Shown: piece by piece, positions 15,422-34,145 of the stretch
How the letters are laid out: each line of letters starts with the position of its first letter
How positions within the stretch are numbered: the stretch's first letter is position 1
Assembly (NCBI GenBank): GCA_017541025.1
Contig: JAFXZY010000094.1
Location: 1-34,184, forward strand
DNA from: Bacteroidaceae bacterium
Lineage (GTDB): Bacteria; Bacteroidota; Bacteroidia; Bacteroidales; Bacteroidaceae
DNA: 34,184 bases
Direction: 5' to 3'
The notes under the pieces: model-generated
Databases searched by the model: none
Told to the model about the DNA's origin: nothing
What the model saw: the letters and a program-made list of their open reading frames with translations, nothing else
Program-made: the position numbers and the translations under genes

Positions 15422-16729
15422 TTAGCCTTGGAACTCTCGGAGCCAGTCTGTGAAGTCCGAAACGCTTTCGCAGGGCTGACCCTTGATGCGACTAAGGAGG
15501 CGGAGGCGCTGGTTGCGGAGGTTCTGGGGACTGATGTTCAGCAACGTTGCTACTTGTTTCTGCCGCAGTTCTACGGCAGAGAGAAGACACATCTGCATTT
15601 CGCTGCGCGAGAGGTTCTGCTTCTCCAGCTTGCGGAGTAGGAGAGGGTAGCGGTCGCGCACAAAGGCGTGAAGCTGTTCCCATTCCTCTGCCGAGGGTTG
15701 CTGTCCGCCATCGGCTAGTTGTTCCATGCGGCTGATAATCTCATTGAAGATGGGTTGCGGCTCAGCCATTGGCTTATTGCGGCGGCGGAAGATTATCACG
15801 AGGGCGGCAATCAACATCATCACCAACACCCCCAATATAAAATAAGGTATAGGGGAGGAATGCTCTTCCTTGGCATCATTGTTTACGATGGCGGGCTCAG
15901 AAAGATTATCCTGCGAATGATACCGCAAACGCAGCAGAGAGTCGCGGGCTGCGGCACAGCGATGGATGATATCGGATTGGTCTGCGTCGGGATGCTCCTG
16001 GAAATAGCGCAGGCAGAAGTCCTTATCGGTAAGCATCTGGCGGACATTCTCCAGTTCTTCGCCCTTCAGGGCTTGGGCAAAATCGCTGCGGCTGGCATTT
16101 AGGCTTCTGCGCAAGGCATAGGCTCCCTGCAGGACGGAATAAGAGGACTGATCGTCCTTTTCTATGCGCATGAAATATTCCAGCGCCTCGGCATACGCTC
16201 CGCTATAAAGGCAGAGATAGGCGGTGAGGAACTGGCTGGGCTTATAGGAAGGGTCGGCTTTCAGGGCTTGGGAAAGTTCCTTGCGAGCCTCTTCCATGCG
16301 GCTTTCCTGCAATAGCGAAAGAGCCGACAGGTGATGCACACGGGCGGCTTCCTTGGCTGGGCCCTTAGCATCGAACCACTCCGTGAGCGGTGGTAGCAGG
16401 GAATCCACAGCCTCTCCCTTGGCATTCTGAGCCATTGCCTGCGCCAGTCGGTATTGCATCTGGATAGATTGGGGGTAATGGCGGATGGTATCCTCCACCT
16501 CGCTGAGCAGATAAAGGGCAAACTGGGCGTCGGAATTATTCTCCAAGACGGTCTCGGCGTACAGAATCTGAAGCGGCGTCTCCACCTGTTTGCGGCAGGA
16601 GAAAAGGAGGAGAAGTAGCAACAGCCTCACCCCTAACCCCTCTCTGAGGAGAGGGGAGAAAAGGAAGCTGCCAACTTTTCGTAGGAAGCCCCTCTCCTCG
16701 GAGAGGGGTTGGAGGTGAGGCTGTTTCAT
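15422..16729 (-). CDS. TPR lipoprotein/membrane regulator with C-terminal HTH
   Basis: Bacteroidota-type one-protein regulator: a periplasmic tetratricopeptide-like part (about 50-270, with QFALYLLSEVEDTIRHYPQ and AYAEALEYFMRIEKDD), one transmembrane helix (about 298-318, YFILGVLVMMLIAALVIIF), then a cytoplasmic tail ending in a helix-turn-helix (about 375-420, RSEMQMCLLSAVELRQKQVA and LLNISPQNLRNQRLR). The first 34 codons are encoded by a 104-bp inverted-repeat element. The peptide becomes an ordinary lipoprotein signal only after it (RLLLLLLLFSC, lipidated C45). A GTG at 16630 would give MRLLLLLLLFSCRK and is a good alternative start (402 residues), because the -7 element ends only 4 bp before the ATG at 16729. 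The target is unknown. It is divergent from the beta-propeller gene. Confidence 0.78.
   Translation of the reverse strand: MKQPHLQPLSEERGFLRKVGSFLFSPLLREGLGVRLLLLLLLFSCRKQVETPLQILYAETVLENNSDAQFALYLLSEVEDTIRHYPQSIQMQYRLAQAMAQNAKGEAVDSLLPPLTEWFDAKGPAKEAARVHHLSALSLLQESRMEEARKELSQALKADPSYKPSQFLTAYLCLYSGAYAEALEYFMRIEKDDQSSYSVLQGAYALRRSLNASRSDFAQALKGEELENVRQMLTDKDFCLRYFQEHPDADQSDIIHRCAAARDSLLRLRYHSQDNLSEPAIVNNDAKEEHSSPIPYFILGVLVMMLIAALVIIFRRRNKPMAEPQPIFNEIISRMEQLADGGQQPSAEEWEQLHAFVRDRYPLLLRKLEKQNLSRSEMQMCLLSAVELRQKQVATLLNISPQNLRNQRLRLLSRIKGQPCESVSDFTDWLREFQG
16621..16724. repeat. 104-bp inverted-repeat element inside the 5' end of the TPR regulator
   Basis: The ends ACAGCCTCACCCC and the reverse complement GGTGAGGCTGT form terminal inverted repeats of about 24 bp with roughly three mismatches. 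Each end contains its own CCCCTCTC/GAGAGGGG hairpin. The left 24 bp are identical to the repeat at 29651. It looks like a non-autonomous element made of two facing copies of the dispersed palindrome. Confidence 0.75.
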
Positions 16730-16733
16730 GCTG

Positions 16734-16741
16734 CAAAGATA
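16734..16741 (-). promoter_or_regulatory. -7 promoter element of the TPR regulator
   Basis: The complement reads TATCTTTG, a perfect TAnnTTTG. It ends only 4 bp before the ATG at 16729, so that start would be almost leaderless and the start at GTG 16630 becomes plausible. Confidence 0.6.
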
Positions 16742-16802
16742 AGACTTTTTTCTAGGATTTCTTCCTTTTTCGGAGTAAACACCAGTAAAAATGCGGTTTG
16801 TT

Positions 16803-16810
16803 TACTTTTG
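16803..16810 (+). promoter_or_regulatory. Putative -7 element of the beta-propeller lipoprotein gene
   Basis: TACTTTTG fits TAnnTTTG and would give a leader of about 105 nt. It sits inside a short direct repeat TTTGTTTAC (16797 and 16807). No clear -33 element. Confidence 0.4.
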
Positions 16811-16920
16811 TTTACTGCCGTTTTTTGCAGGAATTGGTGTTTCAGCGTTACTTTGCAGCAGAAAAAACGTTGCAGCGAATAAAATCAAAAAATGTAAAAC
16901 AAACAAAAAACGAAATGCAA

Positions 16921-18258
16921 ATGAAACGAATCTTTCCCTTGCTGGCAGTCGTGCTGCTTCTTGCCAGCTGCCAAACACCATCTACAAACAATGTAGCCAT
17001 TACGGAGTATGACGATGAGGCCTGGTTGCCTGTGGAAAACCTGGAAAAAATCCCCATGCTGACTGCGCGTGTCGACAGTACTCTCCGTAATATCTGTCCA
17101 GATCACATTATTTCCCAAGGAGAGACAATTCCGTCAGTAGTTGGCGAAGTTACCATGCTGCCTTTAGCTCCTACACCCGGCTTCCACATCGGCTGGATAC
17201 AAAAAATAGACACCGACGGCGACCTATTTTTCATCCTTGGTGCCGAAACGAAGAGTGAGGAAGCCTTCAGCGCTGAAATCAAGGAGAGGGCAGGCTTTAT
17301 CTTCCGTAAGGACGGCAGTTTGGTGGCTCAGCTGAAACCAACGGACGTGGACAAAGATAAAAACCAGATTGTTATGGCAGTGAATCGCCAGGCCAAGGAG
17401 GTTTGCCTGATGTATTGGGGAGAACACGATGGCGGAGAAGGCGACCTTCTGTCCTATGACTACGAGGGTAACCTGCTGCGCCATGAACTTGTCTTCTTTA
17501 GTTATGGAAACATCATGGGCTTTACACAGAACCATCTGATAAGCAACCTAAGGCCGGCATTTGACTTTGCTCCGCAACTCACGGTGCGTGACCCCGAAGG
17601 TATGCCACATGGTTTTATCCTAACCCGTCCCAACAAGGTTTACACCAACGATTATGAAGCCTGTCTGTCTAACTCCGGCGACGAGCTCTTCTATGCCAAA
17701 GCGTATTCCGATACCATCTGGCAAGTAAGCCCAGAGGGAGCCGTAGCCCGCTATCTGGTAAGGGGGGACAGCGTAGGCATAGGTTCGCTGCCTTTCAACA
17801 ACGACTCTACCATCACAAAATCCCAGCGTGTGCTGGCTACCGAGAACCGCTTTATTCCCAATATCGATTACGACCTCCCGCTACTCGTCTCGCCCGACTT
17901 CCTACTATGCCGCTACGTAAAGAACTACAATATCAAGATTCAGGAAGAAACAGAGGGGAAATTCGCATGGGAGTGCGAAACGCTGCATTCAATTCTCGTC
18001 TATGACCGCAAAACGGGTAACAGCTGTTGGGCTTGGAAACTTACGCCCAAATGGACGCTGCAGGGGCTTTGTTCAACTGGAGCACAAGCACTGACAACGG
18101 ATGGCACACTCATCTCCCCCCAAACACCGGCAAACCTGAAGTACTATCTCGCTCATCCCGAGGCTGCCGAATTTGACAGCAAGACGCAAACGTTCATAAA
18201 GAAGCTGGATATCAAGGCGAACCCCGTCCTGCTCCTTATGCCGCTGAAACACTTTTAA
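16921..18258 (+). CDS. 6-bladed beta-propeller lipoprotein (BF3164-like)
   Basis: Secreted lipoprotein of a family common in gut Bacteroidales; molecular role unknown. The start at 16921 (MKRIFPLLAVVLLLASCQ) gives a clean type II signal peptide with lipobox LLASC; an alternative ATG is at 16915. The mature part (about 425 residues) is rich in beta strands with propeller-like repeats such as GFIFRKDGSLVAQL, LLSYDYEGNLLRHELVF, DTIWQVSPEGAVARYLV and HSILVYDRKTGNSCWAW. It is divergent from the TPR/HTH membrane regulator, suggesting that the regulator may control it. Family assignment is from memory of the fold pattern, not a search. Confidence 0.75.
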   Translation: MKRIFPLLAVVLLLASCQTPSTNNVAITEYDDEAWLPVENLEKIPMLTARVDSTLRNICPDHIISQGETIPSVVGEVTMLPLAPTPGFHIGWIQKIDTDGDLFFILGAETKSEEAFSAEIKERAGFIFRKDGSLVAQLKPTDVDKDKNQIVMAVNRQAKEVCLMYWGEHDGGEGDLLSYDYEGNLLRHELVFFSYGNIMGFTQNHLISNLRPAFDFAPQLTVRDPEGMPHGFILTRPNKVYTNDYEACLSNSGDELFYAKAYSDTIWQVSPEGAVARYLVRGDSVGIGSLPFNNDSTITKSQRVLATENRFIPNIDYDLPLLVSPDFLLCRYVKNYNIKIQEETEGKFAWECETLHSILVYDRKTGNSCWAWKLTPKWTLQGLCSTGAQALTTDGTLISPQTPANLKYYLAHPEAAEFDSKTQTFIKKLDIKANPVLLLMPLKHF

Positions 18259-18260
18259 AA

Positions 18261-18367: not shown

Positions 18368-18382
18368 CTTAGGCATACAAAA

Positions 18383-19696: not shown

Positions 19697-19750
19697 GAAT
19701 AGTTTTCGATTTTCTGTTTAGCGAGTTACGATGTCTCCATATAGGACATC

Positions 19751-19782
19751 CGTCCTCCCCTTTGGGGGAGTTAGAGGGGGGC
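19751..19782. repeat. G/C-rich palindromic repeat overlapping the ispG stop codon
   Basis: CGTCCTCCCC-TTT-GGGGGAG followed by TTAGAGGGGGG. The ispG stop (19771-19773) and its last codons (Ala-Pro-Leu) lie inside the repeat. Confidence 0.65.
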
Positions 19783-20946
19783 CAAATCGTTATCTATAAA
19801 GGCAATGAGGCGCTCCACGGCTTCCTCTTCGGGGACATTCCGCTCTACGCATTCCTTATTCTTATATAAAGAGACCTTGCCTCTGGCTGCACCCACGTAG
19901 CCGTAATCGGCATCTGCCATCTCGCCCGGACCGTTCACGATGCAGCCCATGATGCCTATCTTCAGGGTACGATAGCGAGCATCAGCCTTGGCCTTCTCCT
20001 CGATGGCAGCCTTAACCCGACGAATGGTGTCCTGCAGGTCGTACAGCGTACGTCCGCAACCCGGACAACTGATGAACTCCGGCTTATGCATCTGCACACG
20101 GGCAGCCTGCAAGATACTCTGTGCCACAGGAATCTCACATTCGGGCTCCTCGCTCAGACTTACGCGGATGGTGTCACCAATGCCGTCGATGAGCAAAGCA
20201 CCGATACCCACGGCACTCTTCAGTCTGCCGTCTTCTCCCTCGCCTGCCTCTGTAACGCCCAAGTGCAGAGGATAATCCATTCCCTCCTTCTCCATCTCCT
20301 TGCACAGAAGACGGACGCTCTCTACCATGATGACCGTATTGCTGGCCTTGATGCTGACAACAACATCTGGGAAGTGTTCGCGCTCGCAGATACGCAGAAA
20401 CTCCATGCAGCTCTCTACGATGCCCGCAGGGGTATCGCCGTAACGACTCATGATACGGTCCGAAAGCGAACCGTGGTTCACACCGATGCGGATGGCTGTG
20501 CCGTGCTCACGGCAGATACTCAGGAAGCCGCAGAAGCGGTCGTCCAGACGCTGCAGCTCCTGCCGGTACTCCTCGTCGGTATATTCCAGATGCTTGAACT
20601 GACGGGCAGGATCAACGTAGTTGCCTGGGTTGATGCGTACCTTCTCGACAATCGTAGCAGCCACATCTGCCACATTGGGATTGAAGTGTACATCGGCACA
20701 CAAGGGCGTATCTCCGTAGCCGCGAGCCATCAGTCCAGCCTTTATGTTGCGAAGGTTCTCAGCCTCGCGCGTTCCTTGGGTAGTGAGTCGAACCAAGTCG
20801 GCTCCGGCATCTATGATGCGGATGCACTGTTCTATGCAGCCTTCCGTGTCCATTGTGCTGCAGGTGGTCATACTCTGGACGGCCACCTTGTTCTGACCGC
20901 CTATTCGCAGCTTACCTATCTTAACCTCGTGTGTCTGTCTTCTCAT
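19771..20946 (-). CDS. ispG: 4-hydroxy-3-methylbut-2-enyl-diphosphate synthase (short form)
   Basis: Iron-sulfur enzyme of the MEP isoprenoid pathway that converts MEcPP to HMBPP. The 391 residues contain the TIM barrel (VAVQSMTT, LVRLTTQGTREAENL, VRINPGNYVDPARQFK, GVNHGSLSDRIMSRYG, HLGVTEAGEGEDGRLKSAVGIGALL). The C-terminal [4Fe-4S] domain has C294 and C297 (SCPGCG), C335 (MGCIVNGPGE) and E342. The barrel resembles the large three-domain IspG that I recall for Bacteroides (about 600 residues), but the middle insert is absent: IPVAQSILQAARVQMHKPEF runs straight into the cluster domain. The isoprenoid product could feed the polyprenyl synthase encoded at 9.4 kb. Confidence 0.95.
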   Translation of the reverse strand: MRRQTHEVKIGKLRIGGQNKVAVQSMTTCSTMDTEGCIEQCIRIIDAGADLVRLTTQGTREAENLRNIKAGLMARGYGDTPLCADVHFNPNVADVAATIVEKVRINPGNYVDPARQFKHLEYTDEEYRQELQRLDDRFCGFLSICREHGTAIRIGVNHGSLSDRIMSRYGDTPAGIVESCMEFLRICEREHFPDVVVSIKASNTVIMVESVRLLCKEMEKEGMDYPLHLGVTEAGEGEDGRLKSAVGIGALLIDGIGDTIRVSLSEEPECEIPVAQSILQAARVQMHKPEFISCPGCGRTLYDLQDTIRRVKAAIEEKAKADARYRTLKIGIMGCIVNGPGEMADADYGYVGAARGKVSLYKNKECVERNVPEEEAVERLIAFIDNDLAPL

Positions 20947-20974: not shown

Positions 20975-21205
20975 TTATAAGATGAAGTTAAAAGGGGAGT
21001 TATGCGCTATGCGCAGGAAGTTAAAAATTATTTGAGAAGTTAAGAATTCGGGAGTTAAGTAGTTAAGCCATTACTAAAGGCACGTGTATAACTATCGTCT
21101 TTAACTCCTGTCCGAATGGACGAGCGAAGCGATAACTTCTCTAACTTCCCTAACTTCTCTAACTTCCCTAACTTCTCTAACTTCTTTAACTTCCCCTTTA
21201 ACTTC
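20975..21205. repeat. Repeat-filled ispG-purE gap: AACTTCNNN 9-bp tandem array with inverted relatives
   Basis: From 21134 to 21196 there are seven consecutive 9-bp units AACTTCTCT, AACTTCCCT or close variants; a last AACTTC (21200-21205) overlaps the purE stop codon. The left half (20980-21060) holds the complementary motifs GAAGTTAA and GGAGTTAAG, so the strand could fold into a long imperfect hairpin. A 14-bp string AGCGAAGCGATAAC (21123-21136) recurs in reverse complement at 33730-33743. No gene seen here. Confidence 0.8.
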
Positions 21206-22428: not shown

Positions 22429-23919
22429 TTATTTACGCATGCGGGCAATGGGTATCTTCATAAACTCACGGTATTTGGCTATCGTACGGCGGGCAATGTC
22501 GAACCCCTTCTGTTTCAGCAGAACGGCCAGTTTCTCGTCGCTCAGCGGATTCTGTTTGTCCTCAGCATCTATCAAGTCTTGGATAGCAGCCATCACTTGT
22601 TTCGAGGTCGCTGCATCTGCATCGTCCTTCTGCACAGCCTTATGGGTAAAGAAATGCTTCAGGGAATAGATGCCGAAAGGCGTCTGCACATACTTGCTGT
22701 TGCACACACGGCTCACGGTGCTGATATCGTAACCGGCCAGATTGGCAACATCCTCCAGCTTCATGGGTTTCAGCAATGTATCGTCGCCATCCAGGAAGAA
22801 GGGGCGTTGCAGTTTTATGATGGCGTTCATGGTCTTTATCATACTCTCCCTGCGCTGTGCCAGGGCATCTATGAAGATACGGCCACGCTCCACGTATTCG
22901 CGCGTAAACCTTATTTCTTCCTGAACGGCCTTGCTCAACTGCTGTCCCTGCATGTTCTCGTAGGTCTGAAGCATCTCCGTGGCATCCGGACTGATTACCA
23001 GCGACGAAGGATTTCCGCCGTTCAGCTGCATGGTGATATGACCGTCCTCGTCGGCCTCTACTATGAAGTCGGGCAGAATCTGATGACCTATCAGCACGCT
23101 CTTCTCTCCGACAGACGAGCCGGGCCTTGGGTTCAGGCGTTTAATCTCGCGTTTCAGTTCCTCCAGCTGGATAGCCGAGAGTTTCAACTTGCGCTGTATG
23201 TCGGCCCAACGCTTATGCAGGAAATCGTCGTAGTATTTCTCCATCACCTGCAGCATCAGGCGCTGACAAGGGTTCTTCCCGTCACGTTTTATCTGTAGGA
23301 TAAGACATTCCTGTAGCGAGCGGGCTCCCACGCCGGCAGGCTCGAACTGTTGCAGGATAGCCAGCACACCCAGCATTTCCTTCTCCGTTGTCTCTATGCC
23401 CTGGTATATCTCTGCTTCATCAACTATCTGTATCAAGGGCTTCCCCAACAAGCCGTTACCGTCCAGCTCGCCTATCAGGTATTCCAGCAGCTGCTGCTGG
23501 CGCTCCGTCAGGTCGAAGTCGGTCATCTGTGCCTTCAGCTTGTCGTAGAACGTAAGGGTATCTTCGTACTCCACATTCTCGGGCGTGTTCTTGGTGTAGC
23601 TTGAGCGTAGCATATAGTCGGGAATATCGTCCTCGCTTCGGTAGTCGTAGGAGGCCTCACCCCCTTCCCCCCTCTCCGAGGAGAGGGGACCTTCTGCCGC
23701 CCAGCTTCCCTCCTCCTCGGGGGAGGGATCGAGGGAGGGGGCTTTTTCCAGCCAGGGATTCTCCAGACACTCATTGTCTATGCGCTGCTGCAGGGCCTCT
23801 ATGGGCATTTCGGTCAGCCGAACCAGCATCACCTGCTGGGGCGTAAGTGTCTGCACCTGCACCTGCTGCTCGGTCTGTACCTGAACCTGTTCCTGTGTCT
23901 GTTTGTTGTTTTTTGCCAT
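22429..23919 (-). CDS. rpoN: RNA polymerase sigma-54 factor
   Basis: Alternative sigma factor that needs AAA+ activators. The 496 residues have the Gln-rich region I (VQTLTPQQVMLVRLTEMPIEALQQRI, then NECLENPWLE). The core-binding and DNA-binding domains follow, with the HTH region LEDVANLAGYDISTVSRVCNSKYVQTPFGIYSLKHFF. The RpoN box is ARRTIAKYRE at 476-485. Residues about 60-89, in the acidic linker between region I and the core domain, are encoded by the dispersed palindromic repeat (PSPEEEG and SSERGEGG peptides). The N-terminus has a small duplication (EQVQVQTEQQVQVQT). It heads the leftward cluster. The promoter lies only 8 nt before the ATG. Confidence 0.96.
   Translation of the reverse strand: MAKNNKQTQEQVQVQTEQQVQVQTLTPQQVMLVRLTEMPIEALQQRIDNECLENPWLEKAPSLDPSPEEEGSWAAEGPLSSERGEGGEASYDYRSEDDIPDYMLRSSYTKNTPENVEYEDTLTFYDKLKAQMTDFDLTERQQQLLEYLIGELDGNGLLGKPLIQIVDEAEIYQGIETTEKEMLGVLAILQQFEPAGVGARSLQECLILQIKRDGKNPCQRLMLQVMEKYYDDFLHKRWADIQRKLKLSAIQLEELKREIKRLNPRPGSSVGEKSVLIGHQILPDFIVEADEDGHITMQLNGGNPSSLVISPDATEMLQTYENMQGQQLSKAVQEEIRFTREYVERGRIFIDALAQRRESMIKTMNAIIKLQRPFFLDGDDTLLKPMKLEDVANLAGYDISTVSRVCNSKYVQTPFGIYSLKHFFTHKAVQKDDADAATSKQVMAAIQDLIDAEDKQNPLSDEKLAVLLKQKGFDIARRTIAKYREFMKIPIARMRK
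23653..23742. repeat. Palindromic repeat pair inside the rpoN coding region
   Basis: Two G/C-rich units: CCTCACCCCC...CCCTCTCC-GA-GGAGAGGGG (about 23655-23688) and TCCCTCCTCC-TC-GGGGGAGGGA with GAGGGAGGGGG (about 23706-23741). The frame stays open and encodes Pro/Ser/Glu/Gly-rich peptide. Confidence 0.8.
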
Positions 23920-24871: not shown

Positions 24872-24982
24872 TAAATCCCTCATTAAAAAAACTTTGCACC
24901 GATTTCTATTAATAAAGGTTAAAAATTAGGGTGTTCTGCAATTTTTTCCGTCCTAAATTACAAGTAGTTGAAGCATCCCCTC

Positions 24983-24990
24983 TACATTTG
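24983..24990 (+). promoter_or_regulatory. -7 element and possible BlaI-type box of blaI
   Basis: TACATTTG fits TAnnTTTG. Together with the next bases, TACATTTGCA matches the BlaI/MecI core TACAnnTGTA at 7 of 8 fixed positions, so the repressor might bind its own -7 region. Autoregulation is inferred only. Confidence 0.45.
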
Positions 24991-25014
24991 CAGCAGAAAC
25001 AAACGAAACACGAG

Positions 25015-25491
25015 ATGAAAACAACCAACAGAAGAGAGGGCATCCTCAGCAAGACGGAGTACGACATTATGTCCATCATCTGGGACGTTAACCGCTCTGT
25101 CTCGGCACGCGAGATCTACGACCTGCTGCCCGAGCCTCAGCCAGCCTACACCACATTGGCCAACGAGATGCGGATGCTGTACGAGAAGGGCTTCGTGGAC
25201 CACTTCAAGAAGGATGGCGAAGGCAAGACGCATCACTACATCGCCCGCATAGGCAAAGCCGAATACGTCCGCAAGGCCATGCACGACGTGAAGCGCACCT
25301 TCTTCGGAGGCAGCCTGCGCTCGATGCTCAGCTACTTCATACGCGAAGAGGAAATATCGGAGGAGGAATTGATCAACTTCTTGCATGAGATGGAAGCCCG
25401 CTCCCAACCCTCCCCCGAGGAGGAGGGCCAAATATCAACTAATAAGAACACTCCCTCCTCGGGGGGAGTTGGAGGGGGGCTTATCAATTAA
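25015..25491 (+). CDS. BlaI/MecI-family transcriptional repressor
   Basis: Winged-helix repressor that works with a BlaR1-type membrane protease. The start at 25015 (MKTTNRREGILSKTEYDIM, 158 residues) drops an upstream extension that contains the promoter. The winged helix covers about 12-80 (LSKTEYDIMSIIWDVNRSVSA, AYTTLANEMRMLYEKGFVDHF). The dimerisation region follows (SLRSMLSYFIREEEISEEELI). The last 29 residues (130-158; QPSPEEEG and NTPSSGGVGGG) are encoded by the dispersed palindromic repeat and look like an acquired tail. blaR1 follows after 35 bp, also repeat sequence. Confidence 0.9.
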   Translation: MKTTNRREGILSKTEYDIMSIIWDVNRSVSAREIYDLLPEPQPAYTTLANEMRMLYEKGFVDHFKKDGEGKTHHYIARIGKAEYVRKAMHDVKRTFFGGSLRSMLSYFIREEEISEEELINFLHEMEARSQPSPEEEGQISTNKNTPSSGGVGGGLIN

Positions 25492-25524
25492 TCACTCCCC
25501 CAAGGGGGGAGACGGAGGGGGTCT
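25401..25524. repeat. Palindromic repeat cluster covering the blaI 3' end and the blaI-blaR1 gap
   Basis: Three units: CTCCCAACCCTCCCCC-GAGG-AGGAGGG; CTCCCTCCTC-GGGGGGAGTTGGAGGGGGG; and CACTCCCCC-AA-GGGGGGAGACGGAGGGGG. The blaI stop codon (25489-25491) lies between the second and third units. Confidence 0.8.
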
Positions 25525-25526
25525 TT

Positions 25527-27263
25527 ATGTCACAACTCTTAATCTACGCAATCAAGTCGGCCATACTGCTAACGCTGCTGTTTGTGCCTGGTATATTCCT
25601 GATTTTCAGGGAGAAGATGTTCCGTTTCAACCGCTTCACCCTGTTGGCCATCCTGCTGCTGAGCCTGGTGTTGCCCCTGTGTAACTTCTCGTATATCTCG
25701 ATGGACAACATGACGGCCGTTCAGACTTTGGAGAAAGGTTTGCTGGAGATGGGAGTGCCGGTCGAGATGCCAAGCCACACCCCAGCCCTCTCTCAAGGAG
25801 AAGGGGCAGAAAAACCCTTTCCTTGGTTCTACGTCGTAAGCATCCTGTATGCCATCGGAGCAATGACCATTCTGGGCATCCGTCTGCGCGAAGTACTTTC
25901 CATGGGACGCATCATCCGCAGGGGCAGCATCTGGAAGAAGGACGATTCCGACGGCATCCGCATCTATTGTCATGCCCAGCATGTGGCACCCTTCAGCTGG
26001 CTGCGAAGCATTGTCATCAGCGAGCAGGACTATGCAGAGAGCGGACGCGAGATTATCCTGCACGAGAAGGCTCACATCCTCTGCCGTCACTCCCTGGACA
26101 TCATCCTCTTGACCCTTGTAGAGACCATCCAGTGGTGGAATCCCTTCGTCTATCTGTTAGGCATTCATCTGCGCGACGTACACGAGTACGAGGCAGACGA
26201 CTACGTCCTCCTGTCGGGCATTTCCGCCCATTCCTATTCCGAACTGATCATAAGGAAGGCTGTTGGCGCCAGCACCTATACCTTTGCTAATAATTTTAAT
26301 CACAGTCTAACGAAAAAGAGAATCAGTATGATGCTAAAGACAACACCCCCTCGGAGCCGTCGCAGCCTGGTGCTGTACGTCCTCCCCATGATCGCACTGG
26401 CCCTCAGCGCCTTTGCCACCTCAGAGTTCCAGTCAGCCAGCGAGCTGATAGAACAGAAAGTCAACGCTACCAGCAATACCTTTACGCTAAAAGGAACAGT
26501 TCCCAAAGAACTGAATGTTGACCACTACCTTGTCTATATATGGGATTATACAGACAACGTACACCCCGACCCGATAGATACTGTATATGTAAAGGACGGG
26601 AAATTCGAATTCTCGGAAGACTTTGACCAACCCTATTCCGGAATGCTGAAAGCTGTCCTTAAAGACGGCACATTAGGAGACCAGTTTCAGGAAATATTCT
26701 TCGTGCCTGGCGAGACCTGCAATATGAATCTCTATGGTACAAGATTCGACGATTTCGACGTCAGCGGCAGTAAATTCTATCGTGACTGGGCAGCATTCAA
26801 GGAGTTCTATTTGAAGGAAAGGCAGAAAGCGATAGACCTGCAAGGCGCAGGCGATAAGGCTTTTTCCGAAGCCGTAGCCGAGTATAACCGCAAGCATAAG
26901 GACGAGGAAGGCTGCATCATGTACCAGTACATGTGGCGATATACAGGTATGGACTACTCTATTGCCGACGGCATCAGGAACGGTCGCTTCAAAAAATATA
27001 TAGAGTACATGAGAGTAGGGCATGAAAAAAACGATGTAAGCATAGGAATCCACGACAACAAGCTATACCTCAAGAAAAAGGGGGAGGATGTTTACAGACA
27101 GGTAAATCCCAAGGAACTGATGGAAACGCTCAGCCAGTACAAATACGAGCCTACCGTCATCCACATCTACTCCTCCGGTCAGGAATTCAGCCAGCTGGAG
27201 CACATAGCCAAGGAAGCCTGCCGCAAGAACAACCTGCTGAAAATAAATGTGCATAAACGTTAG
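25527..27263 (+). CDS. BlaR1-like M56 membrane metallopeptidase with DUF4369-like and ExbD-like C-terminal regions
   Basis: Signal-transducing zinc peptidase that probably inactivates the adjacent BlaI-type repressor. The 578 residues have N-terminal membrane helices (5-26, 36-56, 100-120). The zinc motif HEKAH is at 179-183 with the downstream E/D-rich site VHEYEADD (218-225), and a fourth helix is at 281-298. After it comes a periplasmic part. Residues about 318-440 (TFTLKGTVPKE, VYVKDGKFEFSEDF, EIFFVPGETCNMNL) resemble the DUF4369 domain found in TlpA-like thioredoxins. Residues about 500-578 (IGIHDNKLYLKKKGEDVYRQ, TVIHIYSSGQEFSQLEHIA) resemble the periplasmic ExbD/TolR fold. Residues 83-97 (SHTPALSQGEGAEK) come from the dispersed repeat. 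The ligand is unknown; a beta-lactam sensor domain is not seen. Confidence 0.85.
   Translation: MSQLLIYAIKSAILLTLLFVPGIFLIFREKMFRFNRFTLLAILLLSLVLPLCNFSYISMDNMTAVQTLEKGLLEMGVPVEMPSHTPALSQGEGAEKPFPWFYVVSILYAIGAMTILGIRLREVLSMGRIIRRGSIWKKDDSDGIRIYCHAQHVAPFSWLRSIVISEQDYAESGREIILHEKAHILCRHSLDIILLTLVETIQWWNPFVYLLGIHLRDVHEYEADDYVLLSGISAHSYSELIIRKAVGASTYTFANNFNHSLTKKRISMMLKTTPPRSRRSLVLYVLPMIALALSAFATSEFQSASELIEQKVNATSNTFTLKGTVPKELNVDHYLVYIWDYTDNVHPDPIDTVYVKDGKFEFSEDFDQPYSGMLKAVLKDGTLGDQFQEIFFVPGETCNMNLYGTRFDDFDVSGSKFYRDWAAFKEFYLKERQKAIDLQGAGDKAFSEAVAEYNRKHKDEEGCIMYQYMWRYTGMDYSIADGIRNGRFKKYIEYMRVGHEKNDVSIGIHDNKLYLKKKGEDVYRQVNPKELMETLSQYKYEPTVIHIYSSGQEFSQLEHIAKEACRKNNLLKINVHKR
25775..25808. repeat. Repeat fragment inside blaR1
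   Basis: CACACCCCAGCCCTCTCTC-AA-GGAGAAGGGG is a decayed copy of the palindromic repeat. It is in frame and lies in the loop between the second and third membrane helices. Confidence 0.6.
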
Positions 27264-28949: not shown

Positions 28950-28959
28950 ATAACTAAAG

Positions 28960-28992: not shown

Positions 28993-29053
28993 TGCCTTTT
29001 TTTCGCAAAATGGGAAAAAGTTATCGTTTTTCAATAAATTTTTTGTGATTTTT

Positions 29054-29085: not shown

Positions 29086-29129
29086 CATATCGAGAAACGA
29101 TAAATTACTAACAAAAAACAATAAAAGGT

Positions 29130-29648
29130 ATGAAAAAGAGATTGAATTTTTTGTCTATCATGATGCTTGTGTTGATAGTGATAGAGTTTGTAAGGCTTAG
29201 TTGGCAGATGAAGGGAGCTATTCGTTACTTCCGGGCTACTATCGAAACATGCTTTTCCGGCGGTTCCACTGATTGGACGCTCTTCTGCTTTATGGTAATT
29301 GCTTTAGCCCTAGTTATTTTAATATGGTATCTTACATTATTCAAAGGATTAATGGCGTTCGTCAGATTTATGCTGAACGTCAATAAGGACAAGATTTTTG
29401 TAAAGGAGAACATTCCGCTACTCCGCAAAACGGGCAATGGCATTTTCTGGTATAATATGTTTATGCTGTCAGCAGTTCTTATAAATTATATTACTTGCGT
29501 TCAAATGCATTTACCCCCAACTGATCATACCGGCTGTATATTCCGTAGTGTAATTTATCCCATTATCCTAAGTATTTTCTGCTGGATTATAGCCGAGGTC
29601 TTCGAAATTGGCATCAAGCTGAGAGAGGAGCAGGAGTTGACCATTTGA
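29130..29648 (+). CDS. DUF2975 membrane protein, copy 1
   Basis: Four-helix membrane protein of 172 residues (helices about 7-24, 50-74, 107-126, 142-162). The C-terminus FEIGIKLREEQELTI is the diagnostic end of the DUF2975 family, whose members sit beside small YozG-like HTH proteins. Function is unknown. It is the first of three paralogues in tandem and the most different: it lacks the long outer loop of copies 2 and 3. A copy of the palindromic repeat separates it from copy 2. Confidence 0.8.
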   Translation: MKKRLNFLSIMMLVLIVIEFVRLSWQMKGAIRYFRATIETCFSGGSTDWTLFCFMVIALALVILIWYLTLFKGLMAFVRFMLNVNKDKIFVKENIPLLRKTGNGIFWYNMFMLSAVLINYITCVQMHLPPTDHTGCIFRSVIYPIILSIFCWIIAEVFEIGIKLREEQELTI

Positions 29649-29650
29649 GA

Positions 29651-29688
29651 ACAGCCTCACCCCTAACCCCTCTCCAAGGAGAGGGGAA
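29651..29688. repeat. Palindromic repeat between DUF2975 copies 1 and 2
   Basis: ACAGCCTCACCCCTAACC then CCTCTCC-AA-GGAGAGGGGAA, a clean copy whose first 24 bp equal the left end of the element at 16621. Confidence 0.85.
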
Positions 29689-29721
29689 CTTAAAACATTG
29701 AACATTATAATTATAAGCGTT

Positions 29722-30462
29722 ATGAAAAATAAATTGAAAATTTACAGCGTTTTGCTGGTTGTGGTTCTGGTTGCTTCGGTCTGCAAGTATCTTAATGTTT
29801 ATCATCATTCATGGACGAACCGACCGGGAGAAGAACTTATCTTGGATTCCCTCAATGAGAACTTTGCAAAAATAGATATTAACACCCAGACTTGGGCTGA
29901 TACTATTGATGGCACTCCTGTTACACAGACTTCTACAAATTGGCATGCCCGGAACAAGTACACATTCGAGATTGGTGTACCCGTCCGTAAACGAGGAGGC
30001 TTGGACCATTATCTGTACAGCCGACTTACAAATGGTCAGCAAGTAATGGTGGACATGCAGACGGTTAAAATAAAGATTCCAATAGAGGAGAGTCAGAAAA
30101 ACATTCCCTTCGTATTTTCGGTTGTCCTGGCTTTTGCTTTTGTTCCTTTCTATATTTGGCTGTTTGTTATTGTCTGGAAGATTCTGCGTTCTGTTTATAA
30201 GGGTGAAGTGTTCGTGACCCAGATAGCAAAGGGACTGGAAAAAGCAGGCAAATTGCTAGTCGCACTCTGGGTTGTGGGCAGAATTGTGGCCTATATTATT
30301 TTATCAATAATGAAGAAGAATCTCCTGATGGCAGGCTATGACATTGACTTCCCCATCGTCGGTGAGTTGTCTTCTGTCATCTTCGGTCTTATCCTGATGA
30401 TTGTTTCTCAGATTATCCTAAGGGGCAAGGAGTTGCAGGACGAACAGGAGCTGACTATCTGA
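29722..30462 (+). CDS. DUF2975 membrane protein, copy 2
   Basis: Paralogue of 246 residues. The start at 29722 (MKNKLKIYSVLLVVVLV) is chosen over an upstream TTG at 29698, because copy 3 begins with nearly the same sequence and leader. Helix 1 is at about 7-24. A roughly 80-residue outer domain follows (about 25-110, including HARNKYTFEIGVPVRKRGG), then three further helices and the family end SQIILRGKELQDEQELTI. The outer domain shows no clear similarity to that of copy 3, while both ends are almost identical. Confidence 0.8.
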   Translation: MKNKLKIYSVLLVVVLVASVCKYLNVYHHSWTNRPGEELILDSLNENFAKIDINTQTWADTIDGTPVTQTSTNWHARNKYTFEIGVPVRKRGGLDHYLYSRLTNGQQVMVDMQTVKIKIPIEESQKNIPFVFSVVLAFAFVPFYIWLFVIVWKILRSVYKGEVFVTQIAKGLEKAGKLLVALWVVGRIVAYIILSIMKKNLLMAGYDIDFPIVGELSSVIFGLILMIVSQIILRGKELQDEQELTI

Positions 30463-30468
30463 AAAAAA

Positions 30469-30505
30469 GCCTCACCTCTAACCCCTCTCCCGTGGGCGAG
30501 GGGAA
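30469..30505. repeat. Palindromic repeat between DUF2975 copies 2 and 3
   Basis: GCCTCACCTCTAACC then CCTCTCC-CGTGG-GCGAGGGGAA: a variant copy at the same position relative to the next gene as the one at 29651. Confidence 0.8.
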
Positions 30506-30537
30506 CTTAATATATAAACAATAATAATTATAGCGTT

Positions 30538-31248
30538 ATGAAAAATAAATTGAAAATTTACAGCATTTTGTTAGCTGTTGCTTTTCTGGCAGAATTACTT
30601 GATATAAATTCCTTGTTGGAACATAAGACTGTTATTTACGTAGATACGGGAAAAGAAGAGAAAGCACTGACTATTGGGCCTTTACCCAAGGAATGCACAG
30701 CAAGAACAATAAAAGCATTGGATGGCATGTTGGCCTTGATGAAACCATATCGCCCATTTGAAGTTAATGTAAAATCATGCCGTTTTGGACGGGAGAAGTA
30801 TTTGGGGTATAATGCGGGCGAGAAATCTTGCGTTATGCATATTAAAAAAGCAGAGGTTATGATTCCTACTGAGCGTGAATATGTGCCAACCCTTTATTAT
30901 ATTCAAATAATTAATATTATATTACAAGGGGTATTTGCTCTCTTTATTATTGTCATAGGTTGGAATTTGATTGTTTCTGTTTACAAAGGAGAAGTCTTTG
31001 TGGCCAATGTCGCCCGTCAGGTGGAATTAGTTGGCGGTTTGATTTGTGGTATGAGTTTGGTAAACATTACATATGGCTATATATCATCAATTATACTAAA
31101 AAAACTGATAGATTTGTCATACCTTAATATCAGTTGGGATTATGGCAATAATGGTATTTATCTTATTCTCGGCCTTACGCTAATGGTTTTTTCTCAGATT
31201 ATCCTAAGGGGCAAGGAGTTGCAGGACGAGCAGGAGTTAACCATTTAG
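30538..31248 (+). CDS. DUF2975 membrane protein, copy 3
   Basis: Paralogue of 236 residues starting MKNKLKIYSILLAVAFLAEL and ending SQIILRGKELQDEQELTI, matching copy 2 almost exactly at both ends. The central outer domain (about 24-115, with VIYVDTGKEEKALTIGPLP and YRPFEVNVKSCRFGREKYLG) is diverged. VSVYKGEVFVANVARQVELVGGL corresponds to RSVYKGEVFVTQIAKGLEKAGKL of copy 2. Probably a membrane sensor or regulator partner of the HTH protein encoded next; the ligand is unknown. Confidence 0.8.
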   Translation: MKNKLKIYSILLAVAFLAELLDINSLLEHKTVIYVDTGKEEKALTIGPLPKECTARTIKALDGMLALMKPYRPFEVNVKSCRFGREKYLGYNAGEKSCVMHIKKAEVMIPTEREYVPTLYYIQIINIILQGVFALFIIVIGWNLIVSVYKGEVFVANVARQVELVGGLICGMSLVNITYGYISSIILKKLIDLSYLNISWDYGNNGIYLILGLTLMVFSQIILRGKELQDEQELTI

Positions 31249-31320
31249 GCCCCCTCCCCGCTCCCCCTTGGGGGAGTGTATAAAATGGTAAATGGTAAAT
31301 CTTTAAATGGTAAATGACGT
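31249..31320. repeat. Palindromic repeat and 7-bp repeats before the HTH gene
   Basis: GCCCCCTCCCCGCTCCCCC-TT-GGGGGAG (31249-31276) is followed by GGTAAAT units (31287, 31294, 31309) and a related AAATGGTAAATG that runs into the HTH start codon. Confidence 0.65.
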
Positions 31321-31321
31321 T

Positions 31322-31528
31322 ATGAGTATAGTAGTTAATGTAGATGTGATGATGGCCAAGAGGAAAATGTCGTCACAGGAACTTGCCGAGAAGATTGGCA
31401 TAACGGCTGCCAACCTATCCATCCTAAAGACCGGCAAAGCGAAAGCCGTGCGTTTCTCCACCCTCGAAGCCATCTGTCAGGCCCTCGACTGCCAGCCGGG
31501 CGACATTCTGGAGTACAGAGAAGATTAA
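31322..31528 (+). CDS. YozG-like XRE-family transcriptional regulator
   Basis: Small HTH protein of 68 residues, of the Cro/C1 type that accompanies DUF2975 genes. The start at 31322 (MSIVVNVDVMMAKRKMSSQ) is preferred to 31307, since family members begin just before the IVVNLDVMMAKRKMS segment. The HTH is SQELAEKIGITAANLSILKTGKAKAVRFSTL, and the end CQALDCQPGDILEY is typical. It probably controls the upstream DUF2975 genes and may be inhibited or tethered by them; that relationship is inferred. Confidence 0.87.
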   Translation: MSIVVNVDVMMAKRKMSSQELAEKIGITAANLSILKTGKAKAVRFSTLEAICQALDCQPGDILEYRED

Positions 31529-31549
31529 TACTGTTAATTGTAAGATATT

Positions 31550-32593
31550 ATGAGAAAGATTTGTTTACTGACATTGTCCACCCTCATGACTATGACGGGC
31601 TGGGCACAGGAGAACAACTACACCATTAAGGCCGACGTCTCAGGCCTTATCAAGTATTATGAGGGTCAGGAAAAGGAACTCAGCGACAGCGTTTACCTTC
31701 TGGACTGTACAACCCAAAAGCCCATCACAGAGAAGATGGTCATGAAGGACCCCAAAAAGGTAGAACTTTGCGGCTATGTGGACGGTCCCAAGATTATCCA
31801 GCTGATGATACTTCAGACGTATGAAGGATGGTCGCGGAATCTGTATGTACCCTTGTTCCTGGAGCCTGGTAACATCGTTATAAATGCTAAGGCAGAATCA
31901 CCCGAGGTGGTAGGAACACCATTGAACAATGTATTTTTCACATGTAACCGCAAGATTATAGAGGCTTCCAAGAACGGGAACCTTGAAATGGCTGCCAAGC
32001 ATAGTGCAGATTATGTACTGGAACACAAGAACGACCTTTCTGCCGTGCTGATGCTGTATAGTATGAGAAACAAGACGGATGCAGAGGCAAAGAACCTGCT
32101 GAACCTTATAGAGCAGTGCAGCGAAAGTGTACGTCAGCATCCACTAACGGTATCACTCGTCAAGAAGTTGAATCACCCCCTGGTAGGCGATATGTTCAAG
32201 GATTTTTCTGTGGAGTACGATGGCAAGACCACTCGCCTGAGCGACTATGTAGGCAAGGGAAAGTATGTGTTGGTGGACTTCTGGGCTTCGTGGTGCGGCC
32301 CCTGCCGAGCAGAGATTCCCAACCTTATCAAGGCCTATGAACAGTACAAGGACAAGGGTTTTATGGTTCTGGGTGTAGCAGTAAACGATAAACCCGAGGA
32401 TACACTGAAGGCCATTGAGAAGGATGGGATTACTTATCCGCAAATTCTCAATTCGGAAGGCATAGCTGCGTCGACTTACGGATTCAATGCTATTCCCTAC
32501 ATCGTACTCTTTGGTCCCGATGGTACCATCCTTTCCTGCGAGCTCCGAGGTGATGCTATTAAAGCAAAGTTAGCAGAAATCTTTGATAAGTAA
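31550..32593 (+). CDS. TlpA-like thioredoxin with N-terminal DUF4369 domain
   Basis: Secreted thiol-disulfide oxidoreductase of 347 residues. The signal peptide is about 1-19 (MRKICLLTLSTLMTMTGWAQ). A DUF4369-like domain is at about 22-120 (YTIKADVSGL, LFLEPGNIVINAK). A helical linker with a degraded-looking repeat follows. The thioredoxin domain starts near 214 with the redox motif WCGPC (C249, C252). The cis-proline loop is FNAIPYIVLFGPDG. It begins 21 bp after the HTH gene, so it may share its transcript. It ends at a bidirectional terminator shared with the TonB-domain gene. Confidence 0.93.
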   Translation: MRKICLLTLSTLMTMTGWAQENNYTIKADVSGLIKYYEGQEKELSDSVYLLDCTTQKPITEKMVMKDPKKVELCGYVDGPKIIQLMILQTYEGWSRNLYVPLFLEPGNIVINAKAESPEVVGTPLNNVFFTCNRKIIEASKNGNLEMAAKHSADYVLEHKNDLSAVLMLYSMRNKTDAEAKNLLNLIEQCSESVRQHPLTVSLVKKLNHPLVGDMFKDFSVEYDGKTTRLSDYVGKGKYVLVDFWASWCGPCRAEIPNLIKAYEQYKDKGFMVLGVAVNDKPEDTLKAIEKDGITYPQILNSEGIAASTYGFNAIPYIVLFGPDGTILSCELRGDAIKAKLAEIFDK

Positions 32594-32622
32594 ACCTTAG
32601 GCCTTAGGCTTTAGACCTTAGT
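32594..32622. repeat. CCTTAGG short repeats after the thioredoxin gene
   Basis: CCTTAGG, CCTTAGG, CTTTAGA and CCTTAG, 7-bp units in tandem between the stop codon and the terminator. Confidence 0.6.
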
Positions 32623-32634
32623 TAAAACAAATAA

Positions 32635-32670
32635 AGCAGCCCAAGGAAATCCCCCTGGGCTGCTATTTTT
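32635..32670. terminator. Bidirectional terminator between the thioredoxin and TonB-domain genes
   Basis: Perfect 9-bp stem AGCAGCCCA (32635-32643) and TGGGCTGCT (32656-32664) followed by ATTTTTG. On the other strand it is followed by TTTATTTG. It serves two convergent genes and resembles the hairpin at 28960. Confidence 0.85.
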
Positions 32671-32685
32671 GTTTTCGGTTTTTAA

Positions 32686-33105
32686 TTATTCTTTTTTCTC
32701 CGTTGATTGTGGAAGATTGAAGGTGACAGGAAGAAACCAGAGAGATCTTTTACACTTATTCATATATCTCGCCGGTTTCCACTTAGGCATTTCTTTGACC
32801 ACACGAATCGCCTCTTCAGAAAGAGATGGGTGGGGCGATTCCCTGACTTTTATTGAATCTATGGAACCGTCTTTTTCAACTATAAAACTTACTTTAACCC
32901 GCCCTTCAATCTTATTCTTCAGGCAATCCTTAGGGTATTTAATATGCTCTTTTAACCACGCTATACAGGCTTTATCTCCACCAGGGAAAGAAGCATTCTC
33001 TTCATATTCAACAAAGACACTTTCATCATATACACCCTGCTGAAGTTGGGCAAAAGCACCAACTGAAAGTGCTAATGCTGATAGTAAAATAAAAAATCTT
33101 TTCAT
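32686..33105 (-). CDS. Secreted TonB C-terminal-domain protein
   Basis: A 139-residue protein with a signal peptide (MKRFFILLSALALSVGAFAQ, cleavage near 19-20) followed directly by a TonB C-terminal domain: FPGGDKACIAWLKEHIKYPKDCLKNKIEGRVKVSFIVEKDGSI, then SEEAIRVVKEMPKWKPA. It lacks the membrane anchor and proline-rich spacer of true TonB, so it is probably a free periplasmic relative rather than an energy transducer. This small secreted form is common in Bacteroidales and its role is unknown. TATCTTTG lies upstream. Confidence 0.88.
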   Translation of the reverse strand: MKRFFILLSALALSVGAFAQLQQGVYDESVFVEYEENASFPGGDKACIAWLKEHIKYPKDCLKNKIEGRVKVSFIVEKDGSIDSIKVRESPHPSLSEEAIRVVKEMPKWKPARYMNKCKRSLWFLPVTFNLPQSTEKKE

Positions 33106-33136
33106 CGTTCAGTGCATGTTTAATGGTTTCCTGTGC

Positions 33137-33144
33137 CAAAGATA
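33137..33144 (-). promoter_or_regulatory. -7 promoter element of the TonB-domain gene
   Basis: The complement reads TATCTTTG, a perfect TAnnTTTG, 31 bp before the ATG at 33105. No clear -33 TTTG. Confidence 0.55.
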
Positions 33145-33195
33145 GTTAGTAATTATGGGACGGCGAAGAATAATCCCTGAAAACCGTCTTTCTTT

Positions 33196-33316
33196 TTAGT
33201 TTTTTAACGATTCCGCAACCTTTTCGTTCAGCAAATCGCATAGTTGCTGGGCTTTCATTTTAACACCATCTATAGGTATGTATTCATGTGGGAATTCTCA
33301 ACACTTTTTTATTCAT
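33196..33316 (-). pseudogene. Possible frameshifted 39-residue mini-gene
   Basis: On the minus strand, ATG at 33316 encodes MNKKVLRIPT and then meets TGA (33286-33284). In the +1 frame the sequence continues without a break as EYIPIDGVKMKAQQLCDLLNEKVAESLKN to TAA at 33196. The joined peptide reads like a real small protein with an amphipathic C-terminal helix. It could be a decayed gene, a programmed +1 frameshift or chance. An intact 20-residue frame from ATG 33258 is the minimal alternative. Family not recognised. Confidence 0.3.
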
Positions 33317-33459
33317 GTCGATACATGGATTTTTGCCACATTTTCCATCAGACATCAAACATCCAATGCATAATCTTTTGCATGATAATTATAATTTAAT
33401 GGTAAATTTTCAATTTATGTTAGCAAAAATCGATTAAGTGAGCGAAATACAAAAGAAAA

Positions 33460-33500
33460 CACAAAAACTGCTACCTTATTATATGCAAGATAGCAGTTTT
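33460..33500 (-). terminator. Terminator of the leftward smalltalk operon
   Basis: Perfect 10-bp stem AAAACTGCTA (33464-33473) and TAGCAGTTTT (33491-33500). Reading leftward, the hairpin is followed by TTTTTGTGTTTTC, a T-rich tail suiting the genes at 33731-34018. Confidence 0.75.
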
Positions 33501-33501
33501 A

Positions 33502-33735
33502 GGTTAGCGATTAGCGGTTAGCGGTTAGCGAACTTGAACCCTTGAACTTCTTGAACCTCTTGAACTTCTTGAACGGTTAAGGTTAACGTTATCGTTATCG
33601 TACGAAGTCTGGTTAACGAACTTGAACCCTTGAACTTCTTGAACCTCTTGAACTTCTTGAACCTCTTGAACTTCTTGAACTTCTTGAACTTCTTGAACCT
33701 CTTGAACCTCTTGAACGGTTAAGGTTAGCGTTATC
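33502..33735. repeat. 7-bp and 9-bp tandem repeats with higher-order duplication
   Basis: GGTTAGC-type 7-mers (four units, 33502-33529) are followed by two related blocks starting GAACTTGAACCC at 33530 and 33618. Each contains 9-bp units GAACTTCTT or GAACCTCTT, three in the first block and nine in the second, and ends GAACGGTTAAGGTTA(A/G)CGTTATCG. The unit shares AACTTC with the array at 21134. Confidence 0.9.
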
Positions 33736-33925
33736 GCTTCGCTACCTTATCAATGTAATAGTCCAGGCCGAAGATGGAGCCTGCCAGAAGGAATGCTTGT
33801 CCAACGTAGAAAAGAAGTCCGTTTGCCACATCTGCTATGGTAAACACCTGATAGGCTACCATCACTATGCTTGTGCTAATCAGCATTACAGCACATGTGT
33901 ACTGTACATTCTTTTTCCTGTCCAT
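33731..33925 (-). CDS. Small membrane protein, 64 residues, unknown function
   Basis: I do not recognise the family. Two hydrophobic segments (about 9-27, YTCAVMLISTSIVMVAYQV, and 35-55, NGLLFYVGQAFLLAGSIFGL) are flanked by charged ends (MDRKKN and DYYIDKVAKR). The start is 3 bp after the stop of the smalltalk gene, so the two are surely cotranscribed. Its last codons and stop fall in the 14-bp string that also occurs beside the ispG-purE repeat array, and the 9-bp array begins immediately after the stop. Confidence 0.65.
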   Translation of the reverse strand: MDRKKNVQYTCAVMLISTSIVMVAYQVFTIADVANGLLFYVGQAFLLAGSIFGLDYYIDKVAKR

Positions 33926-33928
33926 AGT

Positions 33929-34018
33929 CTAGAGTAAGCAGTTTGCTCCTGCACCGCCCAGTATGGCAGCTATAACATAACTGATAATCTGCAGGATAGT
34001 CTTAAGTGTCTTGTTCAT
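33929..34018 (-). CDS. Smalltalk-like micropeptide, 29 residues
   Basis: Tiny single-helix membrane peptide. It starts MNKTLKTILQIISYVIAAI and ends LGGAGANCLL. The K-T-x-L-Q-I-I-S-Y-V-I-A-A-I-L-G-G-A-G motif matches what I recall of the Bacteroidota smalltalk protein family (about 30 residues), often found near an HU-family DNA-binding protein and an N-acetylmuramoyl-L-alanine amidase. Neither neighbour is visible here; an HU gene could lie beyond the right edge. The start at 34018 has an A-rich leader, and a palindromic repeat lies 11 bp upstream. Function unknown. Confidence 0.8.
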   Translation of the reverse strand: MNKTLKTILQIISYVIAAILGGAGANCLL

Positions 34019-34028
34019 AATTAGTGAG

Positions 34029-34145
34029 GTTAGGAGCCTCTCCCCCCGCCCTCTCCGAGGAGAGGGAGCCAAGGTTCTGAGGACTTTGTTAAAACGTTAA
34101 TAATCTTTTTTTTTCAGTTCCCCTCTCCTCGGAGCGAATGGGGTC
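34029..34145. repeat. Two palindromic repeats upstream of the smalltalk gene
   Basis: GAGGTTAGGAGCCTC...CCCTCTCC-GA-GGAGAGGGAG (34027-34070) and AGTTCCCCTCTCC-TCGG-AGCGAATGGGG (34117-34144), separated by an A/T-rich stretch. Reading leftward, frames entering from the right edge (34184) run into the second repeat and end in the A/T stretch near 34090-34105. An upstream gene may therefore finish here with a repeat-encoded tail; too little is visible to name it. Confidence 0.65.

Follow-up and report, generated by a model that had tools for sequence, protein, structure and literature searches.

Very short palindromic elements, probably mobile, lie in frame within protein-coding genes of rumen Bacteroidales

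The right half of the window (the whole stretch of DNA analysed here, 34,184 nt in length) encodes a TPR protein, IspG, RpoN, and a blaI-like and blaR1-like pair, and a palindromic repeat recurs within these genes, at their ends, and between them (Table 1). The repeat is real: with up to 3 mismatches allowed, the 20-mer CCCCTCTCCNNGGAGAGGGG has 5 matches in the window, compared with 0 in 100 shuffles. The reading made from the letters alone (hereafter, the sequence-only reading) had nevertheless mixed two related forms, namely, form A, with the lead GCCTCACCCC, and form B, with the lead GCCCCCTC. A scan for these two main forms yielded 11 sites in the window, from 16,624 to ~31,280, and the 20-mer search added a site at 34,048, with no site from these scans falling left of 16.6 kb. 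The confinement to the right half that had been noted thus holds within the window, but it is a local accident of the window, because sites occur on 42 of the 95 contigs of the MAG (3,277,679 bases; 83.85% complete). In the whole MAG, the 22-base half of form A was matched at 64 places (≤3 mismatches) and form B at 27. The reversed-pattern control of the two-form scan (105 versus 103 matches) is invalid as a control, since the element comes close to being a mirror repeat, so that its copies are also detected by the reversed pattern.

Table 1. Copies and relatives of the palindromic element in the window.
Feature	Position	Strand	Context
A/A inverted dimer, 100 nt	16623..16722	.	5' end of TPR-protein ORF (15422-16729, -)
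B element	19754..19783	-	Overlaps ispG 3' end (19771-20946, -); gives stop TAA
A monomer	23653..23689	+	Within rpoN (22429-23919, -); translated as GPLSSERGEGGEA
B monomer	23705..23743	-	Within rpoN; inverted partner of the A copy (A/B heterodimer)
B-like monomer	25394..25429	+	C-terminal tail of blaI-like ORF (24931-25491, +)
B monomer	25449..25481	-	Same blaI-like C-terminal tail; inverted partner of the 25394..25429 copy
B monomer	25494..25525	-	Between blaI-like stop and blaR1-like start
Degenerate A monomer	25773..25809	+	Loop of blaR1-like protein (25527-27263, +)
A monomer	29653..29689	+	Directly past stop of ORF 29130-29648
A monomer	30468..30505	+	Directly past stop of ORF 29698-30462
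B monomer	31247..31277	+	Edge AG finishes TAG stop (31,246-31,248) of ORF 30538-31248
Longer relative at contig end	34035..34145	.	GCCTCTCCCCCC lead, hairpin 34048-34067, inverted partial copy near 34118-34145

The window's Bacteroidales MAG has loci that are mostly 91–99% identical, over long alignments, to those of RUG14681, an uncultured Bacteroidales MAG from the rumen, and comparison with this and other relatives clarifies several of the copies. The dimer in the TPR gene comes right after the codons ATG AAA CAG and forms a long hairpin (fold z −8.1); it is found in RUG14681 (locus L017) and is missing from genome G013, where the start reads GTGAAACAG (GTG AAA CAG). The last codons of ispG, as well as its stop, come from the B element, and similarity to genome G005 stops at 19787. 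The A/B pair in rpoN sits in the region II linker, which is variable among relatives, several of which have similar repeat-derived peptides there. Two B copies make up the C-terminal tail of the blaI-like protein, and both tail and element are missing from G013 and G005, the copy between the blaI-like and blaR1-like genes has ~77 nt extra inside it in RUG14681, and the degenerate blaR1-like copy has better preserved counterparts at the corresponding position of G013 and G005. Copies lie in the TPR-protein, rpoN, blaI, and blaR1 ORFs, as had been read from the letters. The accompanying claim that the frame is always kept open goes too far: the ispG copy brings TAA, and the copies at 29.65, 30.47, and 31.25 kb lie directly at stops.

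Other repetitive features accompany these copies. Three neighbouring ORFs at 29130–31248 have similar 3' ends, with an element at each stop (A, A, and B). The contig-end repeat (34035–34184) includes a core 20-mer, GCCCTCTCCGAGGAGAGGGA, that recurs on several other contigs, and a similar stretch, CCACTAAATGTGGCT, is present near the copy at locus L010 and in the extra blaI–blaR1 piece of RUG14681. About 3 copies of a 21-nt repeat at 6268–6357 constitute a long inverted repeat between two ORFs, and 9-nt tandem repeats (TAACTTCTC, CTTGAACTT, and CTTACATCT) occupy 21133–21202 and 33541–33736 of the window, as well as 2594–2640 of locus L045.

Form A consists of A-GCCTCACCCC, 3 variable nucleotides (TAA, CGA, CAA, and others), CCCCTCTCC, a short loop, and GGAGAGGGG, so that the monomer is a pyrimidine lead followed by a 3-nt linker and a 9-bp hairpin; form B combines the GCCCCCTC lead with the hairpin CTCCCCC/GGGGGAG. 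The outer end of the element is A-GCCTCACC. Form A occurs singly or as inverted dimers of 85–218 nt, in which two monomers face each other around a spacer of 10–60 nt, the whole folding as one long hairpin bounded by A-GCCTCACCCC...GGGGTGAGGC-T. Nearly all A copies fetched from the sister genome G018 are inverted dimers, with leads outward and a homologous spacer. Dimer lengths are discrete, with eight copies each of 120 nt and 129 nt, and the terminal inverted repeats characteristic of MITEs are present in the form of inverted ends and a 38-pair stem. The four dimers tested fold at z −6.0 to −13.1 relative to shuffles, compared with z 0.23, no better than shuffles, for the one single monomer folded. 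Across the 38-pair stem of the eight 129-nt dimers, 93.8% of the cells are paired (91.6% in column shuffles), and 4 pairs are changed on both sides (1.8 in column shuffles); therefore, the two arms tend to change together. The lead and 5' arm of form A are polypyrimidine and near mirror images of each other, and polypyrimidine mirror repeats are a pattern known for triplex-prone DNA. A triplex (H-DNA) reading of form A was set aside, given that the conserved A of the lead interrupts a pyrimidine triplex.

Repeat sites are present in 26 of the 41 genomes of the genus, the own genome (G000) included. Copies in other phyla, comprising four loci in Desulfamplus and one in Roseivirga, have AT-rich flanks, are not crossed by a long open frame, and may represent contamination or transfer. 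In a record labelled Coriobacteriaceae (RUG13381; locus L056, 3567–3752), A copies lie beside short tandem repeats, and this piece is possibly a mis-binned Bacteroidales contig. The Rfam search of the window at gathering thresholds returned no family, and the insert peptide had no match in the plasmid and phage collections, in which the low-complexity filter of BLAST may hide such a peptide. No paper was found in a literature search for the letters or peptides of the element, and among publications on in-frame palindromes in Bacteroidota or Prevotella, searched mostly outside subscription journals, none was recognised as reporting this element.

The relationship between the element and reading frames was assessed on 248 deduplicated A units (54 dimers and 194 single copies), drawn from 45 named loci and from loci in ten genomes of the genus (six picked as element-rich). 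The reading frame of each 180-base flank was assigned from codon usage, blind to the element; validation on 1374 flanks gave 1131 correct calls, 110 uncalled, and 133 other outcomes, in a set that contains some long shadow ORFs. In total, 76 units are in frame and open, 5 are in the same frame with a stop, 12 have flanks on the same strand but in another frame, and 2 have flanks on opposite strands, with the remainder having one coding flank (101) or none (52). The suspected preference for the host frame is therefore borne out, with 81 of the 93 units with same-strand flanks being in frame (p ~8e-27 against 1/3, a value that is optimistic because the copies are partly related). Broken down by genome, 27/27 units in the own genome and 10/10 in G013 keep the frame, and 9/15 in G018 are open; judged by eye, the six exceptions in G018 are at gene–gene junctions or beside gene ends.

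The element also has a preferred phase. In dimers that are in frame, which read SLTP[DN]PSP ... RGVGGEA, the edge of the element coincides with a codon edge at the leading end in 22 of 26 cases and at the trailing end in 21 of 26. Lead-first single copies (33, named loci excluded) are distributed over the three phases as 26, 7, and 0, compared with 13.5, 12.0, and 7.5 expected from the open phases. Lead-last singles show no preference for phase 0 (7/15), and no clear phase bias was seen for forms B and C, for which a site may count under two patterns and which, in the own stretches, gave 5 frameshift calls versus 13 in frame. Dimer length, with the outer A and T counted, is divisible by three in 26 of 32 dimers from G018, G002, and G013 but in only 5 of 22 elsewhere, and all eight 120-nt dimers (G018 and G002) have the same orientation on the coding strand. 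Substitutions in the spacer display no third-position excess, being flat in the 120-nt class (0.34, 0.36, and 0.37 per codon position) and similarly without such an excess in the 129-nt class (0.40, 0.29, and 0.38), an argument against prolonged selection on the peptide itself.

At gene junctions, the element contributes stop signals and putative start signals. Four 129-nt copies in G018 have an ATG in the spacer, placed behind an A-rich stretch in this spacer type, and in 3 of the 4 it lies behind an in-phase stop. At locus L203 of this genome, the end of an ABC ATPase gene (PF00005) and the start of a MacB/FtsX permease gene are both inside the element. At L308, the element holds the end of a DNA-gyrase-B-type gene and the beginning of CoaD (TIGR01510, matched starting at residue 26 of 182); between the ATG of the element and the CoaD family match, no further in-frame ATG was seen. 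The element edge AG finishes a TAG stop at L200 and L211, as it does in the window at 31,246–31,248. At L209 (~1093–1241), an element contains the end of a purH-like ORF, named by eye; an mreB-like ORF comes next, and the second part of PurH was not observed at this locus.

Copies lie within real, conserved genes, the frames of their flanks agree, and the element is mostly open. A Pfam family was identified in 25 of the 29 proteins scanned, and hosts exceeding Pfam or NCBIfam cut-offs include Era (insert 128–140), EngB/YsxC (100–128), and GltB (156–219 in the own genome and the same region in G015), as well as DapF, shikimate dehydrogenase (AroE), Asn synthase, Pyr_redox, carbamoyltransferase, FtsX/MacB, OEP, S41, U32, and others. 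A CCA-adding-type tRNA nucleotidyltransferase of G013 has two inserts (70–100 and 321–350); it matches the Pfam families PolyA_pol, its RNA-binding domain, and HD, and is under the NCBIfam equivalog cut-offs. The poly(A)-polymerase-type structure 4wby aligns on both sides of the first of these inserts with 0 residues between, and the EngB structure 1sul aligns on both sides of the EngB insert with 4 chain residues between. Seven relatives were aligned at the DNA level. At the first nucleotidyltransferase site, G005, G035, and G036 are empty, G008 is nearly so, G024 and G012 have a longer palindrome-free loop, and G027 carries a different repeat family. At the second site, G005, G035, and G008 are empty, G024 and G012 have a form-C dimer, G027 again carries a different repeat, and G036 is not scorable. 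Similarly, the EngB site is empty in 7 of 8 relatives, the eighth, G020, having a different A/B-type pair. The residues of the insert are thus missing from orthologues in relatives, at the DNA level as well as in the aligned structures, as expected of inserted rather than ordinary protein sequence. The net gain at the EngB and second nucleotidyltransferase sites differs from the element length; hence, host codons may be lost or the loops may vary. Host genes with the insert remain under purifying selection, with dN/dS values as low as those of empty relatives: 0.065–0.090 for the nucleotidyltransferase and 0.065–0.205 for EngB (five pairs each), compared with 0.072–0.101 and 0.074–0.151, respectively, for empty pairs (three pairs each).

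Beyond empty sites, relatives provide shared insertions and differences between near-identical genomes. The same insertion site is occupied in more than one species in blaR1 (three species), GltB (G000 and G015), and the S41 peptidase and OEP genes (G018 and G002). The blaR1 element is at the same place in the two nearest species, G013 and G005, and is therefore an inherited insertion; such sharing concerns close relatives and not unrelated genera, in which the same residues would mark ordinary protein sequence. In RUG14681, a D-galactarate/altronate-dehydratase-type gene (Pfam PF20629 and PF04295) contains an in-frame A insertion of 66 nt that is missing from the corresponding own locus, L103, the flanks being 95.8 and 97.8% identical between the two genomes. 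The alignment of seven chosen places from the same pair revealed further differences, including a C dimer, a 9-nt tandem repeat, an A copy versus a 9-nt repeat, a B copy in the TPR linker, and the ~77 nt within the blaI–blaR1 copy. One 45-nt stretch of 9-nt repeats is present in only one of the two genomes, and such repeats replace palindromic elements in place.

We consider it very likely that these sequences constitute a family of very short, non-autonomous mobile palindromes that insert in frame in protein genes and resemble the Rickettsia palindromic elements (RPEs) in action. The element would be copied and inserted into genes, and insertions would persist in surface loops, in linkers, and at the ends of genes, sites at which an insert peptide of 12–50 residues would be translated and tolerated, whereas copies elsewhere would be purged by selection; at gene ends, the element may provide stops and, in some cases, the start codon of the following gene. 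A rather unlikely, though the strongest, alternative dispenses with transposition and has template switching or ectopic recombination patch repeats into breaks or slipped loops, so that permissive loops would be rewritten time and again with any repeat available. Such patching would fit the occurrence of unrelated repeats in one loop in different species, and the swaps of an A copy or a C dimer for 9-nt tandem repeats between near-identical genomes. It would also fit the lack of an apparent target duplication (none evident by eye in the G018 pairs and at the polymorphic site, exact empty sites being few), the apparent loss of host codons at some sites, and the presence of TGAGGCT, the end of the element, already in the empty allele at one site polymorphic between the own genome and RUG14681. 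The dimers, however, look like a mobile unit in their defined ends (an outer A and an outer T), their discrete lengths, and their homologous spacer.

We regard as very improbable the possibility that the repeats are ordinary extragenic REP-like sequences and that the genic copies reflect over-long or spurious ORFs. Many copies do lie at gene edges or between genes, and most of the 248 units are not clearly genic (101 one-sided and 52 with no coding flank); 48 of 74 one-sided units in the genus are located 3' of a gene, as are REPs (PMC3733652). Nevertheless, in EngB, Era, GltB, and the nucleotidyltransferase, the inserts interrupt recognised domains or separate conserved segments, and the empty sites in relatives contradict this explanation. 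Still less credible is the skipping or post-transcriptional removal of the insert, akin to translational bypassing: long hairpins with 38-bp stems in essential genes would hamper translation, but skipping would leave the frame and stops unconstrained, which does not fit the 81 of 93 units that are in frame, only 5 of them with a stop. Finally, convergent low-complexity Pro/Gly/Ser/Glu linkers of GC-rich DNA, with no mobile repeat involved, might be entertained for the naturally variable and acidic region II of RpoN, but can be virtually dismissed, being contradicted by the same DNA between genes and in unrelated genes and by the empty sites.

Turning to how a mobile in-frame family might relate to known systems, we found no transposase as its mover using profile PF01797 alone. 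REPINs depend on RAYT transposases. The REP-associated transposase (TnpA-REP) suggested in the sequence-only reading was rejected as the mover: PF01797 has 0 matches in the own genome (83.9% complete) and does not track copy number in the genus. It exceeds the cut-off in 10 of the 41 genomes, which are incomplete MAGs, and among the A-rich ones, G013 and G035 have one match each and G018, G016, and G020, like G000, none. REPINs, described as two inverted REP-like hairpins acting as one unit (PMC3116915), are alike in their paired inverted hairpins, but copy number here does not follow PF01797. GTAG/CGTC REPs are small hairpins that occur as singletons or head–head homo- and heterodimers 20–100 bp apart, are favoured downstream of ORFs, supply TAG stops, and are in some cases intragenic (PMC3733652). 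The element shares with them hairpins, single and dimer forms, location 3' of genes, TAG stops, and intragenic copies, but has no GTAG in the A or B consensus and no CGTC, has the pyrimidine lead GCCTCACCCC, and comes from a genome without detected PF01797. The enterobacterial RU-1/2/3 MITEs are MITE-like units of 103–168 bp that are intragenic with the frame maintained (PMC2759123); sequence and host differ, and unlike the fusions in chosen loci described there, the insertions found here are numerous, in frame, and internal to housekeeping genes, with empty sites in relatives.

The likeness to RPEs drawn from the letters is supported as an analogy: the element appears to work that way, in frame, but the resemblance does not imply membership of that family or of a RAYT-driven REP family. 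A review presents RPEs as short palindromic sequences that have entered numerous unrelated protein genes in frame and that each code for a conserved peptide (PMC10969869). In-frame palindromes in many unrelated genes and hairpin-forming dimers are common to both, whereas the phylum and sequence are different, and junction copies here carry an ATG, usually behind a stop. RPE-4 and RPE-6 of R. conorii are stated to terminate in CGTC (PMC3733652); the present element is without this end tag, its ends being A-GCCTCACCCC...GGGGTGAGGC-T. We accordingly name it a kind of intragenic palindromic MITE/REP element that is neither GTAG- nor CGTC-tagged.

It is possible, and we advance this only tentatively, that the element acts as a portable module of coding sequence and is not simply a REP striking genes by chance, and that, together with the other families at the same sites, it forms a system rewriting protein loops and ends in the genus. 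This reading is suggested because the edges of the element are codon edges, the dimer length is mostly a multiple of three in three genomes, the spacer is read one way, and one spacer type bears an ATG that would serve at gene junctions. Protein-coding palindromes were reportedly unique to Rickettsia, according to the title of a 2002 paper. A 2024 review considers the same phenomenon conceivable in other prokaryotes (PMC10969869). The elements described here would be a second, unrelated case of protein-coding palindromes, in free-living rumen Bacteroidales, and one that comes with empty sites, old shared insertions, strain-level polymorphism, and repeated hits of the same loops. The old question of mobile DNA building new bacterial protein segments thereby becomes testable by proteomics and comparison of isolates.
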